From Acidobacterium sp. (GTDB lineage: Bacteria; Acidobacteriota; Terriglobia; Terriglobales; Acidobacteriaceae), in contig PMUI01000101.1 of NCBI GenBank assembly GCA_003166955.1, positions 1 to 64,000 of the forward strand: a stretch of 64,000 nt of DNA, in the 5' to 3' direction. Under the pieces are notes generated by a model. That model was not told the DNA's origin, ran no database searches, and saw nothing but the letters and a program-made list of their open reading frames with translations. Shown one piece after another: positions 31,965 to 40,447 of this stretch (its first letter is position 1; each line of letters starts with the position of its first letter). Position numbers and translations under genes: made by a program.

Positions 31965-33094
31965 TGGGCGGGCGGTTTCTTGCCTTGTTTCTCGTGGCAG
32001 CGACGATTGCCCTGGTTGTCGTCGGCACGCTCTGGCCCGTCCCCGCGGCGGCCGCCTATGCGGGCATGAGTCCCTCCGGCATCATGCATTCGCCCTCCAC
32101 GCCGGAAAGCGCAGTGGACAATCTGGCGATTGCCATTGGCCATCAGGACTGGCCGAAAGCGTACTCCGAACTAAGTAACAAAGCCGAATTCACCGAACAG
32201 GATTTCCTCCACGACTTAACCGGCAGCTATCCCAGTCTTCGCACCTACGCCATCCTGGATACCTACCAGGTCCAGCCGCTGCATGTTTCCGACAGCGACG
32301 CGCAGGTGCGGCTCCGAATGCGCTGGTCCACGGTCGTCGGCACCTTCCTCGACACGCGCAACCTTCAGGTGGTCAGAAACGGGGATCAGTGGGCTCCTGT
32401 CTGGCCCATCGTCAAAGAGACGCGAGTGCCGCCGCAGGTTATTGCCGTGAACTACCTGCGCTGGGATGTAATCTACCGCGGCCCGGCGGATGACTGGGGC
32501 GCCCAGGACGTCGAGGCTCCTCACGTCCGCATCGTGGACATGCATCCGGTGGAGCGCGCCGCCGGCGTCGTCGTGCTCGGCGAACTACTGAATGAAGACG
32601 TCGTGCCGGCTTACGTCTCAGTGAAGGCGACGCTGCTGGCCAAAAACGGCTCGGCCATCGCTACCGAAGACAGCTTCGACAAAATCTCCCACCTGCTTCT
32701 GCCCAAGCAGGTCACACCGTTCCTGATCACGTTCCCTAACGTCTCGCTCTCCGAGGTCGACAGCATCCATATGGACCCGATGTCGAATCTCGTCGCGGCT
32801 TCGGCCGATCCCGTCGTCGAAATCCAAAACCAGAAACTGAGCCCCGCGCCGGATGCGATCTTCGGCGGAGATTTGGTGAACCAGAGCGGCCAGATTGTCA
32901 ACATCGCTCACGTGCTCGGCACCTTCTACGATCAGAGCGGCCAGTTGGTTTGGGTTGCGGATCAGTACATTGATCGCGCGCTCCTGCCGCAAACCCCGGT
33001 GTCGTTCTCGATGCCGGTTCCCGAGGATCTGGCCCGCAAAGTCAGCACCGAGCGCGCTGTGGTCGCGACGTACAGTTCTGGCGGCTTCCAATGA
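31961..33094 (+). CDS. membrane-anchored or exported protein, unknown family
   Basis: A 377-aa protein. An N-terminal hydrophobic segment (FLALFLVAATIALVVVGTLW) is an uncleaved anchor or signal. The next part (TPESAVDNLAIAIGHQDWPKAY) resembles a DUF4878/NTF2-like start, and the rest is beta-rich. The later region (PVERAAGVVVLGELLNEDVVP) looks like an FxLYD/CARDB-type module. GTG 31961 lies within the preceding stop (GTGA), with CAGGAAGG upstream, and its own stop overlaps the next ATG. It therefore belongs to a translationally coupled quartet. I do not recognise its function. Confidence 0.75.
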   Translation: MMGGRFLALFLVAATIALVVVGTLWPVPAAAAYAGMSPSGIMHSPSTPESAVDNLAIAIGHQDWPKAYSELSNKAEFTEQDFLHDLTGSYPSLRTYAILDTYQVQPLHVSDSDAQVRLRMRWSTVVGTFLDTRNLQVVRNGDQWAPVWPIVKETRVPPQVIAVNYLRWDVIYRGPADDWGAQDVEAPHVRIVDMHPVERAAGVVVLGELLNEDVVPAYVSVKATLLAKNGSAIATEDSFDKISHLLLPKQVTPFLITFPNVSLSEVDSIHMDPMSNLVAASADPVVEIQNQKLSPAPDAIFGGDLVNQSGQIVNIAHVLGTFYDQSGQLVWVADQYIDRALLPQTPVSFSMPVPEDLARKVSTERAVVATYSSGGFQ

Positions 33095-33966
33095 GTCGCG
33101 TACGTGTATCCTGGCTGGCTGTTATCGTCTCCGCTGCGGTCCTGCCGGCTCTGGCGCAAAGCGGAGCTCTGGATCTGCCAAAGAACATCGAGGCTGGCAG
33201 CGCCTTCTCGATCCCAACCACCGGCGCCGGTAAAGCGACTCTCTACGTCGCCGGACCTGCCCAGGCGTTAAAGCGTGAGGTGCAACTGGGTCAGCCCATC
33301 GCCTTTGCGGCGGGCGACCTCAGTAATGCCGGACATTATCTCGCTGTTCTACGCAGTGACTCGTCGACGGAGACCGGAGAGTTTGACGTTGCCCCCGCCA
33401 GTACGCCCGCAGCACTCAGCTTTCTGGCCAAGCCCTCGCGGCTTCCCGCAGGCTTGCAAAACGGCATCACCGGCGCGGTGTATGTCTTCGACTCCTTTCA
33501 GAACCTGATCACGAAACCGACGCAGGTCAACTTCCAGCTATCCGTCGCCGCCGCTCCGACGCAAGCTCGCACCGTCACGACCAGTCAGGGCGCAGCGTGG
33601 ACGGAGATGAACTCGGCCACCAAAGAGGGAAATGCGAAGTTCGTTGCGCAGGCCGGCAATGTTTCCGCTGCTCGCGTGATCCAGCAGGTTCCCGGAGATC
33701 CCTGTGGATTGAAGATGAGTGCCCGCCAGGTCGGCGATAAGCTTCAGCTCGAAACCGATCCGCTGCGCGACTGCAGCGGCAATGCCGTGACCGACGGGAC
33801 CATCGTCACGTTTACCGAGAGTTGGAATGGCAGTCAGACTACCGTCGACGTTCCTCTCAAGCACAGCGTCGCCCAGGCTGAAGTCCCCGCCCGCAGTGGC
33901 GCGCGCATCTCCGTGGCGACCGGCGTCGTGATGGGGAACGAAATCCGCTGGGAGGGCCAGCCGTGA
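33091..33966 (+). CDS. exported protein with Ig-like domains
   Basis: A 291-aa protein with a signal peptide (VSWLAVIVSAAVLPALAQ). The rest is strand-rich and holds at least one Big-1/invasin-like section (GLQNGITGAVYVFDSFQNLI, TQVNFQLSVA). Two cysteines (GDPCGLKM and RDCSGN) could form a disulfide, consistent with a periplasmic or surface location. The ATG overlaps the previous stop (ATGA) and its stop overlaps the next GTG. No known enzymatic motif is present. Confidence 0.75.
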   Translation: MSRVRVSWLAVIVSAAVLPALAQSGALDLPKNIEAGSAFSIPTTGAGKATLYVAGPAQALKREVQLGQPIAFAAGDLSNAGHYLAVLRSDSSTETGEFDVAPASTPAALSFLAKPSRLPAGLQNGITGAVYVFDSFQNLITKPTQVNFQLSVAAAPTQARTVTTSQGAAWTEMNSATKEGNAKFVAQAGNVSAARVIQQVPGDPCGLKMSARQVGDKLQLETDPLRDCSGNAVTDGTIVTFTESWNGSQTTVDVPLKHSVAQAEVPARSGARISVATGVVMGNEIRWEGQP

Positions 33967-34460
33967 CGCGACCCCTCGCGATTCTCTGCGCCGCGCTTGC
34001 CGTATCTGCCGCATTCGCCGCGGACCAGGGCTCCGTCCAGGTGGAACCCACCGTGCTGCGGGGTCCCCGGCCGCTAGCCAGGCAGACAGAATCGGCTGTG
34101 GTGCGCGATTATCTTGAGGCCTGGCAAACACTGAGCGCGGCCATGGATCAGAACCGCGCGGACCTGTTGAATCAGAACTTTGTGGGCACTGCGAAGGAGA
34201 AATTCGCGGTTACCATCGCCGAACAGGCAAAGCTGGGTCTGCGCACCCATTACCAGGAACGCTCCCACGACATCAAAATTATTTTTTACTCTCCCGAGGG
34301 GCTATCCATTCAGCTGGTTGACTACATCCAATACGACGTACAGCTTCTCGATCGTGAGAAGGTCCTGGCGACACAGCCAGTACAGGCACGCTATATAGCG
34401 GTTCTCACGCCCACAGAAGTGCGTTGGAAGGTACGCGTGCTTCAGGCTGAATCGCAGTGA
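33963..34460 (+). CDS. small exported protein, unknown family
   Basis: A 165-aa protein from GTG 33963 with a signal peptide (RPLAILCAALAVSAAFA). The mature part has a helix-rich section (AVVRDYLEAWQTLSAAMDQN) followed by strands (LSIQLVDYIQYDVQLLD, VRWKVRVLQ), which suggests an NTF2-like or SnoaL-like cone. Last of the four coupled genes from 30213; a 102-base gap separates it from the GT2 gene. Confidence 0.72.
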   Translation: MTRPLAILCAALAVSAAFAADQGSVQVEPTVLRGPRPLARQTESAVVRDYLEAWQTLSAAMDQNRADLLNQNFVGTAKEKFAVTIAEQAKLGLRTHYQERSHDIKIIFYSPEGLSIQLVDYIQYDVQLLDREKVLATQPVQARYIAVLTPTEVRWKVRVLQAESQ

Positions 34461-34562: not shown

Positions 34563-35549
34563 ATGATTTCGGTCGTGGTGCCGATCTATAACGAGGAAGC
34601 GAATATTCCGCTCTTCCATGAAGCCGTCGCCGATGCGTTGATGGATATTGGCGAGCCGTGGGAGGTCGTCTACGTCAATGACGGCTCCAAAGACTCGTCG
34701 CTGGATCTGCTGCGTGGTTTGCAGGAAGACGATACGCACGTCATAGTCGTCGATCTGACTCGCAACTGGGGTCACATGGGCGCCATCTCGGCTGGCCTGG
34801 AAACCGCCCGCGGCGATGCCGTGGTGCTGATGGATGGCGATTTTCAGGATCCCCCCGAAGTGATTCCGGAGTTGGTCGAAACCTGGCGCGGCGGTGCCCA
34901 GGTCGTTGTCGCCGTGCGCAGAAGCCGCCAGGAGCGCCGTAAAGTTCTCGCAAAACTGTTTCCGCTGTTCTATCGGTTGCTCAGCGCGCTCTCCGACTTT
35001 CCCATCCCCATCAACGCCGGCATCTTTGGCCTGATGGATCGTCAGACGGTCGACTCCATCAACGCCATGCGCGAGAACAATCGTTATCTGCCCGGCCTGC
35101 GCGCGTGGGTGGGTTACAGCAACGCGATTGTCTATTATGATCGCCAGGACCGCCTCGCGGGCGACGGCAAGCTGTCCTTCACCAGCCGCATCAAGTACGC
35201 GATGGATGCGATCACGAGCTTCAGTTACAAGCCCCTGCGGCTTTGCTTCGTGCTCTCGGGTGTTGCCTGCTGCATGGCCGCGCTTATGGCGTTTGCCAGC
35301 ATGCTGTCGAGCAGTCCATGGAATGCAGTCGGCTGCGGCGTGGCGTCTGCGGTGTTCCTGGTGGGCGGCGCTCTGCTGCTCTGCCTCGGCGTGCTTGGCG
35401 AATACCTGGGGCGCGTTTACGACGAAGTTCGCCAGCGGCCGCTGTCCATCATCAACAAGGTCCATTACGCGTCGCAGGCAGCTTCCGCTCTGGATCGCCC
35501 AGCTGAGGAAGAGGAAGAGCAGCCCGCGAAGATCCTCCGCATTGCGTAA
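34563..35549 (+). CDS. GT2-family glycosyltransferase, DPM1/GtrB-like
   Basis: A 328-aa enzyme. The GT-A domain (residues 1-230) begins MISVVVPIYNEEANIPLF, binds metal-nucleotide at VLMDGDFQDPPEVI (DGDFQDPP) and has FGLMDRQTVDSINAM. Two C-terminal membrane helices (LCFVLSGVACCMAALMAF and VFLVGGALLLCLGVL) anchor it. This architecture transfers a sugar from a nucleotide donor to polyprenyl phosphate. An AGGAGG ribosome site precedes ATG 34563. It supplies a lipid-linked sugar and fits the neighbouring glycan genes; it is not a processive synthase. Confidence 0.9.
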   Translation: MISVVVPIYNEEANIPLFHEAVADALMDIGEPWEVVYVNDGSKDSSLDLLRGLQEDDTHVIVVDLTRNWGHMGAISAGLETARGDAVVLMDGDFQDPPEVIPELVETWRGGAQVVVAVRRSRQERRKVLAKLFPLFYRLLSALSDFPIPINAGIFGLMDRQTVDSINAMRENNRYLPGLRAWVGYSNAIVYYDRQDRLAGDGKLSFTSRIKYAMDAITSFSYKPLRLCFVLSGVACCMAALMAFASMLSSSPWNAVGCGVASAVFLVGGALLLCLGVLGEYLGRVYDEVRQRPLSIINKVHYASQAASALDRPAEEEEEQPAKILRIA

Positions 35550-35552
35550 GAA

Positions 35553-36512
35553 CTACCGCGCTGGTTTCGAGCCCGCTCCGCACGTTGGAATCCCGGGCTC
35601 GACCGCCGTGCCCTCTTCATAATCATTCCAGGTTTCCACTAACAGATAGGGAATCGGATCGTCCGCCGAATAGTACTTGCGCCACAGATTCAGCGTGTCG
35701 GTGAAGGTCTGGCCGCACCGTCCCGAGATGTGCCGATTCTGGCTCCACGACGCCTTGCTGTCGTTGAATTGCGCCCATGTGCCGCCTACGGCAATCTTGT
35801 CCGGATACTTCGATTGCATCGTCTGGTAGAAGTCAGCGAGATAGTCGTCGCCCCAATTGCTGCCATCCGCCGCCCAGCCCTTCCTGCCGGGCTGGACCCA
35901 GGCATAAAACCCGTCAAACGCGCTCGCGTTGGCACCAGGCAGGTTTTCATAGATCAGATACGGTGCTGGATTCCACTTGCTCACTACCTCGCGAACCCGA
36001 TTCCAGTCCGTGTGCCCGCCCTTCGGGAAAATGAAGATGATCGGCCGGCGGTTGAGCGTCAGGTAAGCATCGCGGCTTGGCGCATCCGCCGCCAGATACG
36101 TGTCGCGAAAGGTCGTGAAATCCGCGATTGCCTCGTCCGTCGCACCGTCCTCCGCATCCGTCTCGTCGTACATCATCGCGATATGAAACTTCTCCTCCGC
36201 GGCGATCGGCTGCAGCAGCTCGTACGTCCGCGCATTGAACGGATCGCGGTCCCCGTACCAGTCCACGACAAAACCGGAGATGCCCATCTTCTTCGCCTGA
36301 TGGATCTGCTTGCGCAACTCCGCAGGATCATGCGAGGAGTAGCCGATGGAAATGTGCTGGGGGTGCCCGAACCATGGTTCGTAAACCGCCAGCATTACCG
36401 GCGACACGCCGGGAACGCCCACCTTCAGCCGTGCAGGCTTCGGTGGCGACGATTCAGAACATCCATGAGTAAGCAGAATCAGGCTAAGGAAGGCAGTCGT
36501 CGCGCGAAACAT
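35553..36512 (-). CDS. lipoprotein with GH99/WbsX-like glycoside hydrolase fold
   Basis: A 319-aa protein with a lipoprotein signal: LSLILLTHGCSES gives a lipobox with the cysteine at about residue 18. The mature part opens PVMLAVYEPWFGHPQHI and continues KKMGISGFVVDWYGDRD, PIIFIFPKGG, FDGFYAWVQPGRKG and LLVETWNDYEEGT. This is the layout of GH99-like and WbsX-like proteins, in which W.GD and ETWNDYEEG segments line the active site. It would cleave or trim a glycan, probably at the periplasmic face, like the hydrolases that accompany exopolysaccharide systems. Convergent with the GT2 gene (stops 3 bases apart). Confidence 0.78.
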   Translation of the reverse strand: MFRATTAFLSLILLTHGCSESSPPKPARLKVGVPGVSPVMLAVYEPWFGHPQHISIGYSSHDPAELRKQIHQAKKMGISGFVVDWYGDRDPFNARTYELLQPIAAEEKFHIAMMYDETDAEDGATDEAIADFTTFRDTYLAADAPSRDAYLTLNRRPIIFIFPKGGHTDWNRVREVVSKWNPAPYLIYENLPGANASAFDGFYAWVQPGRKGWAADGSNWGDDYLADFYQTMQSKYPDKIAVGGTWAQFNDSKASWSQNRHISGRCGQTFTDTLNLWRKYYSADDPIPYLLVETWNDYEEGTAVEPGIPTCGAGSKPAR

Positions 36513-36744: not shown

Positions 36745-38718
36745 GTGCAGAACGGCCCCATAAAACAGGCAAAGACGCTCCACGCCCGCATTCTGTCGGG
36801 AAGTTTCGTTTTGCTCCTGGGCACCGGCCTCGCAACCGGCACCAATTTCGTCTATAACGTCGCCGTTGCGCGCTTCCTCGGTCCCACCGGCTACGGCCAT
36901 GCGACCGCCGTCTACACTCTGCTCATCCTCATCTCCGCGGCAACGCTCTCTTTTCAGATCGTAGCCGCAAAAGTGGTCGCGCAGCAGAGCGCGCTGGAGG
37001 AGAAGCAGGCTGTCTATCGCGGTTTTCATCGCGCGGCGTGGGCCTGCGGCATTCTCGTTGCGCTGCTCCTGCTGCTTTTTCAGCGTCCCATCGCGAATTA
37101 CCTGAACCTGCCGGCGCCGATTCTTGTCGCTCTCCTGGCCATCGGAGCTGCCTTCTACGTTCCTCTCGGCAGCCGGCGCGGCTACATCCAGGGCGTCTGC
37201 GGCTTCCGCAGTCTCGCCACCAACATCGTGCTTGAAGGAATCGTCCGCCTCGGCGGCTCCTTGCTGCTGATCCGGCTCGGCCTCGGCGTGCGGGGCGTGG
37301 TGGCCGCCAATGCGGCGGCGGTGGTTGTTGCGTATTTCGCTGCCGTTCCGTCCCGGCGCGTCCCCCGCATATCGAATCCGCTGCTGTTACAAAATGCGCT
37401 GCGGGAAACCGTCCATGCCATGGTCTACTTTTCCGGCCAGGTTCTTATCAATAACTGCGACATTGTCCTGGTCAAACATTTCTTCATTCCCACCACTGCG
37501 GGACTCTATGCTGCTGTGGCCATGGTGGGCCGAGTCATCTTCACCTTCTCCTTCGCTGTCGTCAATTCCATGGTCCCCCTCGTCGCCGGCACACGTCAGG
37601 AGGAACGACGCGGATTCAAGGTCATCGGAACGGCGTCTCTGCTGGTGCTCGCGATTGGCGCCGTGCTCGCTCTCGGCCTCCGTCTTACTCCCGCTTCTCT
37701 GTGGGCCGGATTCTTTGGCAGCGGCTTCAGCGTAGAGGGTGAATATGGCCTCCCGTATTTGCTCTCGATCTATGCAGTCACCACCATCCTCTATTGCCTG
37801 AGCGTCATCATTATCACTTACGAAATGGCCTATAAGATTGCGAATACCGGCTGGGTGCAGCTGGCGTTCAGCGTTGTAATCGTCGCGGCCATCTGCCGCT
37901 TCCATTCCTCTTTGCGTGAAGTGATCTGGGTTCAGCTCATCCTGATGATCGTGCTGCTGGTGGTCGTAACAATCCCGTTCATCATCACCTCACTCGCCGA
38001 CGCTCGCGCAGGGGAGCGAACTCTCGGCGCCGCGCCCATCAAGATCCTGCGCCGCATTTCCGAAGACGAAGTCATCGCCGAATTTCTGAAGAGCGATTTT
38101 CATAGTGCCGCTTTTCACGAATACCGGGAAGCTCTGTGCGACCTGGTGACGGCGCCCAATCTCGAGGATCCGGTCGAGAACGCCACGCGGAAGGCCCTCC
38201 TGTTCATTCGTCACCTTGCCTTATGGAAGGAACTGCCAACGGAAACGGAATGGTATGAGGTGGAGCTTCGACCGTCGGAGCTGCACCGCATCCGGGTCTT
38301 TCCGCGAGCGCAGTGGCGGAAGGTCGCGCGAGGCAACTTCTCCCTCACCGCGGTGGCCGAGCGCATGCGCAGACATCACCAAACCATCGAACCGTCGTTT
38401 CGGGCCAAGATCGAAGCGATCGGCAATCGGGTCTCGGGCCACGACCCTGATCTGGGCGCGGTCGTCCTCATCGGCCTGAGCGAAAACGAGCCGCTGACCG
38501 TCCTCGATGGAAATCATCGGTTGATGGCGGCCATCCTGGCATCGCCTGACAAATTGGGCCGGCTGCGTTACCTGTGCGGCTTGTCGCCGAGGATGAGGGA
38601 GTGCTGCTGGTACAACACCAATCTTGTGACGCTTACCAGGTATGCGAAGAACGTGCTGACGCACGTCGTGCGTGATCCCGAAGCCGAACTGGCGCGGCTG
38701 TTACAAGGCGCCGGATGA
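36745..38718 (+). CDS. MOP-superfamily flippase fused to a ParB-like DGNHR domain
   Basis: A 657-aa protein. Residues 1-430 are an oligosaccharide flippase (Wzx/PST type) with about 12 membrane segments, starting FVLLLGTGLATGTNFVYN and VARFLGPTGYGHATAVYTLL. Residues 434-657 form a separate soluble domain. It contains WYEVELRPSELHRIRVFPR and, at Asp588-Arg592, LTVLDGNHRLMAAILA, the core of ParB/Srx-like and DGQHR-like folds. Usual flippases end near residue 430-500, so the tail is an accretion. Start is GTG 36745. It should move a lipid-linked glycan across the inner membrane; the tail may sense or bind a nucleotide. Confidence 0.85.
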   Translation: MQNGPIKQAKTLHARILSGSFVLLLGTGLATGTNFVYNVAVARFLGPTGYGHATAVYTLLILISAATLSFQIVAAKVVAQQSALEEKQAVYRGFHRAAWACGILVALLLLLFQRPIANYLNLPAPILVALLAIGAAFYVPLGSRRGYIQGVCGFRSLATNIVLEGIVRLGGSLLLIRLGLGVRGVVAANAAAVVVAYFAAVPSRRVPRISNPLLLQNALRETVHAMVYFSGQVLINNCDIVLVKHFFIPTTAGLYAAVAMVGRVIFTFSFAVVNSMVPLVAGTRQEERRGFKVIGTASLLVLAIGAVLALGLRLTPASLWAGFFGSGFSVEGEYGLPYLLSIYAVTTILYCLSVIIITYEMAYKIANTGWVQLAFSVVIVAAICRFHSSLREVIWVQLILMIVLLVVVTIPFIITSLADARAGERTLGAAPIKILRRISEDEVIAEFLKSDFHSAAFHEYREALCDLVTAPNLEDPVENATRKALLFIRHLALWKELPTETEWYEVELRPSELHRIRVFPRAQWRKVARGNFSLTAVAERMRRHHQTIEPSFRAKIEAIGNRVSGHDPDLGAVVLIGLSENEPLTVLDGNHRLMAAILASPDKLGRLRYLCGLSPRMRECCWYNTNLVTLTRYAKNVLTHVVRDPEAELARLLQGAG

Positions 38719-38743: not shown

Positions 38744-39142
38744 ATGAACACAGGCATGCGTGCAGTTGCAGTCAAGCGAGTTCCGGGGGTGCTGAGCGTT
38801 CCGCACAAGGTTGCGTTTCTCCACGAGATTGAGAGCGTCATTAACGCAAACCGGCCGCGCCTGGTTCTCGACTGCTCCAATCTGGGGGAATGCAGCACCT
38901 CCACGATCCACCTGCTGCTGCATTGTCTCGAAGAAGCTATGAAGCGTAACGGAGATGTGAAGCTGGCCGCTGTGCCGGCCGCCGCTGCCATTGTCCTGGT
39001 GAGCACAGGTGTGGCACGCCTCTTCGAGACATTCGACACGACCGCGGAAGCGGTGAACAGTTTCCATCAACTTCCTGTCGCCGCAGGCAGGCAGGCGGTC
39101 GCGTCCGAAGTTGCGGACCGCGCATCGGAAGAGGCAGCTTAA
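38744..39142 (+). CDS. STAS-domain protein
   Basis: A 132-aa protein with the anti-sigma-antagonist fold: AVKRVPGVLSVPHKVAFLHE, LVLDCSNLGECSTSTIHLLL, NGDVKLAAVPAAAAIVLVST and VARLFETFDTTAEAV. The phosphorylatable serine position is in ECSTS. ATG 38744 has AAGGGA upstream; the longer frame to 38672 overlaps the flippase and is rejected. It follows the flippase by 25 bases. A regulatory switch for exopolysaccharide production, as with other STAS proteins, is an inference. Confidence 0.82.
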   Translation: MNTGMRAVAVKRVPGVLSVPHKVAFLHEIESVINANRPRLVLDCSNLGECSTSTIHLLLHCLEEAMKRNGDVKLAAVPAAAAIVLVSTGVARLFETFDTTAEAVNSFHQLPVAAGRQAVASEVADRASEEAA

Positions 39143-39730: not shown

Positions 39731-40447
39731 ATGGGTCCAGGGTCCAAATTACGGCGTACTAGGTTGGTCAGCTTTTCCGGCATCGATGGCGCGGGCAAGA
39801 GCACGCAGATTGAAGCTCTCCGTACCCGGCTTCGGGAAGCCGGCCTCCGTGTCCGCGTGATCACCTTCTGGGATGATGTCGCGTGCTTCACCGGCATGCG
39901 CGAATCCGCCGGCCACACGCTGTTCAAGGGCGACAAAGGCATCGGAACCCCGGAGAAGCCGATCAACCGCCGGGACAAAAACGTCCGCTCACGCTCGATG
40001 ACGATCATCCGCTGCTGCCTTTACCTCGCCGACGCCGTCTCCCTCCGCTTCACCATCCGCCGAGCCCTGGCCTCCGGTGCCGAATTTATCATCTGCGACC
40101 GGTACTCCTGGGACGAGCTCGTCAACCTGACGCTGCGTTACCGGCTCACCAGGATTTACGTGCGCATGATCATCAGAATCGTTCCGCGTCCTGACGTCAG
40201 CTTGCTTCTCGATGCGGATCCGATTCAGGCGCGCGCTCGCAAGCCCGAGTACCCGCTCGATTTTCTCTACAGAAGTCGCGAATCGTATCTGACCATGAGC
40301 GAACTGGTGGGAGGCATCACGATCATTGCGCCTGGGCCGATTAGCGACGTGGAGGAGCACATCCTGAACCACATCTCGCTGGAGGACTTCCGGAAAGAGC
40401 GCGCACCTCAACTAATAGAAGAGGCTGGCGGCGGGGCGGCCGCCTGA
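39731..40447 (+). CDS. thymidylate-kinase-like P-loop kinase
   Basis: A 238-aa protein of the dTMP kinase-like group. The P-loop is FSGIDGAGKSTQIEAL and the DR motif is IICDRYSWDELVNL; SLLLDADPIQARARKPEYP fits the lid/binding region. It differs in the substrate pocket from the true Tmk encoded at 63010 in this window. Such extra kinases are common in polysaccharide clusters and may phosphorylate a sugar or nucleoside. The gene lies 32 bases after the previous one and appears to end the operon. Confidence 0.75.
   Translation: MGPGSKLRRTRLVSFSGIDGAGKSTQIEALRTRLREAGLRVRVITFWDDVACFTGMRESAGHTLFKGDKGIGTPEKPINRRDKNVRSRSMTIIRCCLYLADAVSLRFTIRRALASGAEFIICDRYSWDELVNLTLRYRLTRIYVRMIIRIVPRPDVSLLLDADPIQARARKPEYPLDFLYRSRESYLTMSELVGGITIIAPGPISDVEEHILNHISLEDFRKERAPQLIEEAGGGAAA

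Follow-up and report, generated by a model that had tools for sequence, protein, structure and literature searches.

To our knowledge, little is understood of how Wzx-type flippases keep pace with the supply of precursors. A gene in a 64,000-nucleotide stretch of an Acidobacterium sp. contig (PMUI01000101.1; here, the window) raises the question of what a soluble domain built into such a flippase might do. The first-pass annotation of this DNA had described a flippase fused to a C-terminal soluble domain with DGNHR at residues 588 to 592, and our analysis confirmed this description for the ORF at 36745-38718 (+ strand, 657 aa, GTG start). The product of this gene is a MOP/Wzx-type flippase half followed by a soluble C-terminal domain, which we refer to as the tail (Table 1). 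Both halves fall in known superfamilies, and the two-part architecture of flippase plus tail is well supported.

Table 1. Features of the fused gene and of its neighbors, in window coordinates
Feature	Coordinates	Strand	Basis
GT2 polyprenyl-phosphate-glycosyltransferase-like gene	34563..35549	+	PF00535, E 1.5e-31
GH71/GH99/WbsX-like gene	35553-36512	-	below Pfam cut-offs
MOP/Wzx-type flippase half, residues 1-422	36745..38010	+	PF01943, AF2 model, Foldseek, loop charge
Short link, residues ~423-430, from last membrane helix to soluble domain	38011..38034	+	AF2 model: helix 390-427, then strand 433-438
ParB/Srx-fold domain, ~225 residues (~431-657), probably cytoplasmic	38035..38715	+	AF2 model, VIA-align 2, Foldseek PDB and BFVD
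DGNHR, D588-R592, GxxR-type phosphate (P) motif	38506..38520	+	read from sequence; conserved in relatives
STAS-domain protein	38744..39142	+	PF01740, E 2.4e-9
Thymidylate-kinase-like P-loop protein	39731..40447	+	PF02223, E 1.1e-10

The membrane half

The Pfam family PF01943 (Polysacc_synt) matched residues 17-280 with an E-value of 4.5e-11 and 43.1 bits, compared to a curated cut-off of 28.2. An AF2 model of the full-length protein (pLDDT 86.1, pTM 0.71) has the MOP fold in its membrane half, with approximately 12 transmembrane helices in residues 1-422 when helix limits are drawn by hand. Foldseek searches with this model matched MATE, WzxE, and MurJ structures; the best E-value was 2.4e-7, for a MATE transporter, and TMt reached 0.75 for WzxE (9g9o). 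Using the hand-set helix limits, we counted 13 lysine and arginine residues in inside loops versus 3 in outside loops; therefore, the N and C termini, and hence the tail, are predicted to be cytoplasmic. The cargo is probably a lipid-linked saccharide, judging from the family and from the neighboring glycosyltransferase genes.

Fold of the tail

We modeled the tail with AF2 from 55 sequences (mean pLDDT 89.1, pTM 0.85). The model has an extra N-terminal helical part, formed by helices at 20-75 in domain numbering. When the model was searched against the PDB with Foldseek, 13 of the 44 rows, among them ranks 1-4 and 6-9, were ParB, Noc, Srx, or SerK; the best E-value was a weak 1.2. VIA-align 2 is not an independent search, as it takes the 275 best Foldseek chains and aligns them again; it gave 24 entries at Z ≥ 2, and 20 of these were Srx, ParB, Noc, KorB, PadC, SbnI, or SerK, which amounts to approximately 13 different proteins with 1vk1 counted as SerK. 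The remaining four entries were two Osa structures, which we take to share the ParB/Srx fold, and two others. The five best structural matches were Srx entries, led by Arabidopsis Srx 6ky4 (Z 5.1, with 87 of 89 residues aligned at rmsd 2.8), although Z of approximately 5 is modest and Z < 8 may reflect just a common arrangement. This alignment covers residues 83-206 of the tail model and spans DGNHR. For SerK and SbnI, Z values of 3.2-3.7 indicate fold likeness only. A search of the viral library BFVD gave 101 matches with a best E-value of 0.023; among the best 50 rows, 22 carry the names ParB, Spo0J, sulfiredoxin, or DNA-sulfur modification, and another three are GmrSD, which presumably shares the ParB/Srx fold.

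At the sequence level, a profile of ParB proteins from related bacteria recovered Arabidopsis Srx, SerK, SbnI, and PadC; thus, most of the structural matches belong to one superfamily. The structural resemblance to ParB/Srx that the first-pass annotation anticipated was found with AF2, Foldseek, and VIA-align 2. The tail likely adopts the ParB/Srx fold, an assignment that has good backing as structural comparisons go, with modest scores.

Direct sequence comparisons gave weaker signals. No Pfam model scored above its cut-off on the last 237 residues (best E 0.091), and PF02195 (ParB_N) was absent from their Pfam matches at E ≤ 1; five separate or divergent copies of the domain matched no Pfam family at E ≤ 5. 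NCBIfam likewise held no model matching the window domain at E ≤ 1, DGQHR/DndB-type families included, leaving the DGQHR-family label of the earlier annotation unsupported. Comparing domain alignments with ParB_N in hhalign yielded E-values of 0.03 (A4), 0.21 (A1), and 0.095 (A6), with probabilities of 1.7, 0.3, and 0.6%, respectively; at these probabilities (<2%), the program set GNHR, or GHxR of stand-alone relatives, opposite GERR of ParB. In Smith-Waterman comparisons of the window domain, 285 of 1,000 shuffles reached the score with Srx and 220 of 1,000 the score with ParB; for the best relative tried, L160 against ParB, 90 of 1,000 did so, compared to 4 of 1,000 for a positive control of ParB against Srx. 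A PDB profile search gave no hit better than E 0.15; the hits were a capsid protein and designed-repeat constructs. The window domain had no match in PHROGs, while the divergent relative L160 matched phrog_4603, a family of sialyltransferases (E 0.019), and phrog_1033, which is ParB-like (E 0.35). Homology of the tail to ParB/Srx is probable and is not proven by sequence.

Conserved residues

Scanning genome contigs with alignment A1 detected 156 relatives, and we kept the best 80, of which 73 are complete ORFs of 654-820 aa. DGNHR is present in all 80 of these loci. In A1 itself (n=27), 18 sequences have DGNHR and nine have EGNHR; two pieces of a broken copy in one genome (L023 and L029, G035) and a spurious partial stretch (L020) were left out of this alignment. 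Alignments A2 and A3 cover 54 and 49 of 79 loci, respectively. GNHR occupies residues 169-172 of the tail model, between a strand at 164-168 and a helix at 170-179. Residues invariant among 55 fused sequences are GNHR, F99-P100-R101-W104, and C191/C201/W202 (domain numbering). The corresponding motif of human Srx is GGCHR, in which the Cys is catalytic; all 80 loci have Asn at the position of this Cys.

According to sections of a recent survey, GxxR is the P (phosphate) motif of the ParB fold, and other ParB-fold proteins need its arginine to bind NTPs (PMC12704722). GNHR fits this motif (Box II). For Box I (C motif, base), the conserved FPRAxW at domain residues 99-104 is no more than a candidate.

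Distribution of fused and split forms

With the tail alone as query, we found the domain in 23 of 61 related genomes, all within the family to which the window belongs. A single ORF encodes flippase and domain in each of 79 loci tested (72 complete; drawn from the best 80 of the 156 relatives, leaving out L050, which is identical to the window's domain). Carriers other than metagenome-assembled genomes include KBS 83, KBS 89, AB60, Acidobacterium sp. S8, Acidipila rosea DSM 103428, and Occallatibacter savannae AB23, and single-contig carriers occur in both fused (G366, G409, G181) and split (G270) form. Presence in this one genome through an assembly join, which the first-pass annotation had set against its own proposal, was rejected because the one-ORF form recurs in 79 of 79 loci and single-contig genomes carry both parts. 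One record titled Rhodanobacteraceae (L121) has the same cluster in the Acidobacteriaceae gene order; given this mismatch, it may represent gene transfer or a mis-binned contig. Beyond the family, two copies were found in the class sample, G414 being fused and G216 divergent and stand-alone, and one stand-alone copy (G598) in the phylum sample (n=396).

In nine genomes the domain is a separate gene directly after the flippase gene. The ATG of the domain overlaps the TGA of the flippase by four bases (ATGA) in all nine split pairs, and such an overlap is the usual sign of coupled translation.

Searching with the flippase half (residues 1-422, E ≤ 1e-20) recovered 23 of 61 genomes, and these are exactly the ones that carry the domain. 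In the class sample, this flippase was found in 32 of 399 genomes and the domain in 33, the extra genome being G216 with its divergent stand-alone copy; open-frame lengths and gene layouts place 25 of the 32 as fused and seven as split. Fisher p values for co-occurrence were 2.7e-17 among the 61 relatives and 1.8e-46 among the 399 genomes of the class, both inflated by shared ancestry. Because 23 of 23 and 32 of 32 flippase genomes hold the domain, members of this flippase clade (E ≤ 1e-20) were never seen apart from it. In the genomes searched, the pairing is obligate from the flippase side; the reverse is not strict.

We also built a domain tree from 46 chosen rows, in which the nine split copies require one change (weak support, 81/36) and the fused copies require two; the bootstrap had not settled. 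Because the root sits on long branches, the tree does not distinguish an ancestral fusion from an ancestral fission.

Orphan and divergent relatives

Two orphan copies of the domain (L040:7563-8561 and L043:6534-7580), found in genomes G022 and G015, have a hydrophobic N-terminal stretch that, by eye, is probably membrane-spanning. Such a flippase is absent within the 15-16 kb around these copies, which form one branch in the domain tree (100/99). More divergent stand-alone relatives carry the motif GHxR, without the N. One of them, L160:8057-8698, has VEGHSR and lies near genes that resemble type I restriction-modification genes by eye. A plasmid search with the divergent relative matched three records, all Streptomycetaceae, and related proteins are found on Streptantibioticus and Kitasatospora megaplasmids; no plasmid record matched the window domain. 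We considered a phage origin for the divergent stand-alone relatives and rejected it, finding no match among phages or viral contigs.

Neighboring genes

In the window, the GT2 gene is followed by the opposite-strand GH71/99-like gene and then by the flippase fusion, with the STAS and thymidylate-kinase-like genes downstream. A relative of the STAS gene lies close to the flippase in 61 of 79 fused loci and in 9 of 9 split loci, and one of the thymidylate-kinase-like gene in 60 of 79 and 9 of 9, respectively; the contigs of several fused loci end too early to show one or the other gene. These counts make STAS, flippase with tail, and kinase the commonest lasting unit, which is not universal. 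In a second gene layout (L118, L123-L125, L127-L129), the fusion lies beside a large TPR gene, and the STAS and kinase genes are absent from the stretches examined at these seven loci. We therefore rejected the idea that the two genes are strictly constant partners.

The first in-frame start of the STAS gene is at 38672; by eye, the ATG at 38744 is likelier. A role for the STAS protein as a phospho-switch partner is weakened, since the usual Ser/Thr site, located by eye, is Ser in 25 and Ala in 26 of 75 aligned sequences (one row, L049, was read in the wrong frame). The thymidylate-kinase-like protein scores far under the NCBIfam dTMP kinase cut-off, with GKsT (P-loop) and KPEYP conserved; it is perhaps a cluster enzyme rather than a housekeeping dTMP kinase.

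Upstream, relatives of the GT2 gene occur in 42 of 79 fused loci and, within the 13.8-16 kb covered per locus, in 0 of 9 split loci. The GH71/GH99/WbsX-like gene adjoins the flippase gene in the opposite orientation, and homologues are present in 69 of 79 loci, some of them remote or elsewhere in the locus. Two further + strand genes, 33091-33966 and 33963-34460, have no convincing Pfam match; their relatives occur in 48 and 49 of the 79 loci, respectively.

Possible functions of the tail

GNHR is invariant, and the cytoplasmic tail that carries it is tied to a flippase; these features suggest an accessory domain under ligand control. We infer that the built-in ParB/Srx-fold domain binds a nucleotide and regulates a Wzx-like MOP flippase of lipid-linked saccharides, a reading to which we give an even chance. 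The GNHR loop would hold the phosphates of a nucleotide (an NTP or a nucleotide-sugar), and whether the tail is bound or free would adjust either the flippase itself or how it assembles with biosynthetic enzymes, such that the lipid-linked sugar would be exported from the cytoplasm only under a suitable supply of precursor or energy. A more specific version, which we put forward tentatively as possible rather than probable, is that the tail is an NTP switch (perhaps for CTP or an NDP-sugar) that gates glycan export by precursor level, possibly together with the STAS and thymidylate-kinase-like neighbors. Fusion or ATGA coupling would keep switch and flippase in step.

The ParB/Srx likeness could also be accidental, with strands and helices that happen to be similarly arranged in an unrelated new fold. 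In favor of this reading are weak E-values in both Foldseek searches, failed pairwise sequence tests, hhalign probabilities under 2%, and VIA-align 2 Z values under 8. However, the top-ranked matches from both the PDB and the viral library share one superfamily, the ParB profile ties most of them into one family, and hhalign places GNHR opposite GERR of ParB, which together leave a chance likeness very improbable. Within the ParB/Srx fold, the tail could instead be a phosphotransferase resembling Srx or SerK, whose target at the cytoplasmic face, just before flipping, would be the lipid-linked saccharide, polyprenyl phosphate, or a partner protein. Srx and SerK are enzymes of this same fold, Srx entries are the five best structural matches, and the invariance of GNHR, F99-P100-R101-W104, and C191/C201/W202 (n=55) is tighter than a mere scaffold requires. 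Yet the Cys of GGCHR is Asn in 80 of 80 loci, the divergent stand-alone relatives with GHxR lack that Asn, and neither a candidate substrate nor a catalytic base was found, so we regard such an enzyme as unlikely.

A nucleotide-free docking module, holding the flippase by the synthesis enzymes or binding the phosphate of the lipid-linked substrate, would suit the 1:1 fusion or ATGA coupling, as expected for a subunit of a complex. Sections of the ParB-fold survey report that 17 of 28 purified proteins bound no NTP while 11 of 28 did, stress that NTP binding alone is no proof of a switch, and name SerK, Srx, and PadC as cases in which the fold serves as an enzyme or scaffold and does not switch (PMC12704722). 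The pseudokinase domain of MviN is described as working by recruitment, without ATP binding, in the parts of the source cited here (PMC12599244). Set against docking is the conservation of the pocket motif, unchanged at all 80 loci, which suggests a bound ligand, and we consider a docking role somewhat unlikely. Returning to the nucleotide-binding regulatory tail, the presence of a fused or overlapping-gene ParB-like domain in many soil Acidobacteria hints at nucleotide-controlled sugar export. Because fused and split versions both occur naturally, this flippase clade offers a direct test of supply control.

Comparison with known systems

The domain described here is recognized by no Pfam or NCBIfam model in our searches. 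We know of no earlier ParB-type switch acting on a membrane transporter, and a nucleotide-gated flippase would be the first; if the proposal is true, the ParB-type nucleotide fold extends to a membrane transporter. Our literature search retrieved no report of a flippase-ParB fusion among its best matches, with most subscription journals and bioRxiv preprints outside its coverage. Kaljevic et al. 2025 (December 2025; PMC12704722) surveyed ParB-fold proteins by PF02195 at the gathering cut-off, according to sections of that paper, and since the tail has no PF02195 match, such a survey very likely missed it. The fusion partners named in those sections are HTH, a C-terminal dimerization domain, HNH, UPF0020, DUF3850, DUF4417, methyltransferases, CBS, ASCH, and MT-A70, with no membrane-transporter fusion among them, and the word "flippase" is absent from the main text (PMC12704722).

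The tail shares its core fold with the ParB-CTPase/sulfiredoxin superfamily (ParB, Noc, KorB, PadC, Srx, SerK, SbnI) over approximately residues 82-206 of the model, with GxxR aligned to GERR of ParB. In contrast to these proteins, it has no PF02195 match, has extra N-terminal helices, is joined to a transporter, and carries Asn-His within GNHR. Like the MOP saccharide flippases Wzx and WzxE (PF01943), the membrane half has the common fold, a PF01943 match, and, in the window, glycosyltransferase genes nearby; unlike them, every member of the present clade in the genomes searched (E ≤ 1e-20) comes with a soluble domain of approximately 225 residues, either fused or coupled. Mycobacterial MviN is also a MOP flippase, and its pseudokinase domain offers a possible precedent, by analogy, for a regulatory domain on a flippase-type protein. 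Like MviN, the fused protein would be a membrane-embedded participant in envelope synthesis whose soluble regulatory domain follows its transmembrane half, whereas the MviN domain, as described in the parts of the source cited here, is an unrelated pseudokinase that recruits FhaA in another pathway (PMC12599244). As in the fusions described in sections of Kaljevic et al. 2025 (PMC12704722), a ParB-fold domain appears to have been re-used by fusion, and the partner in this case is a membrane transporter.
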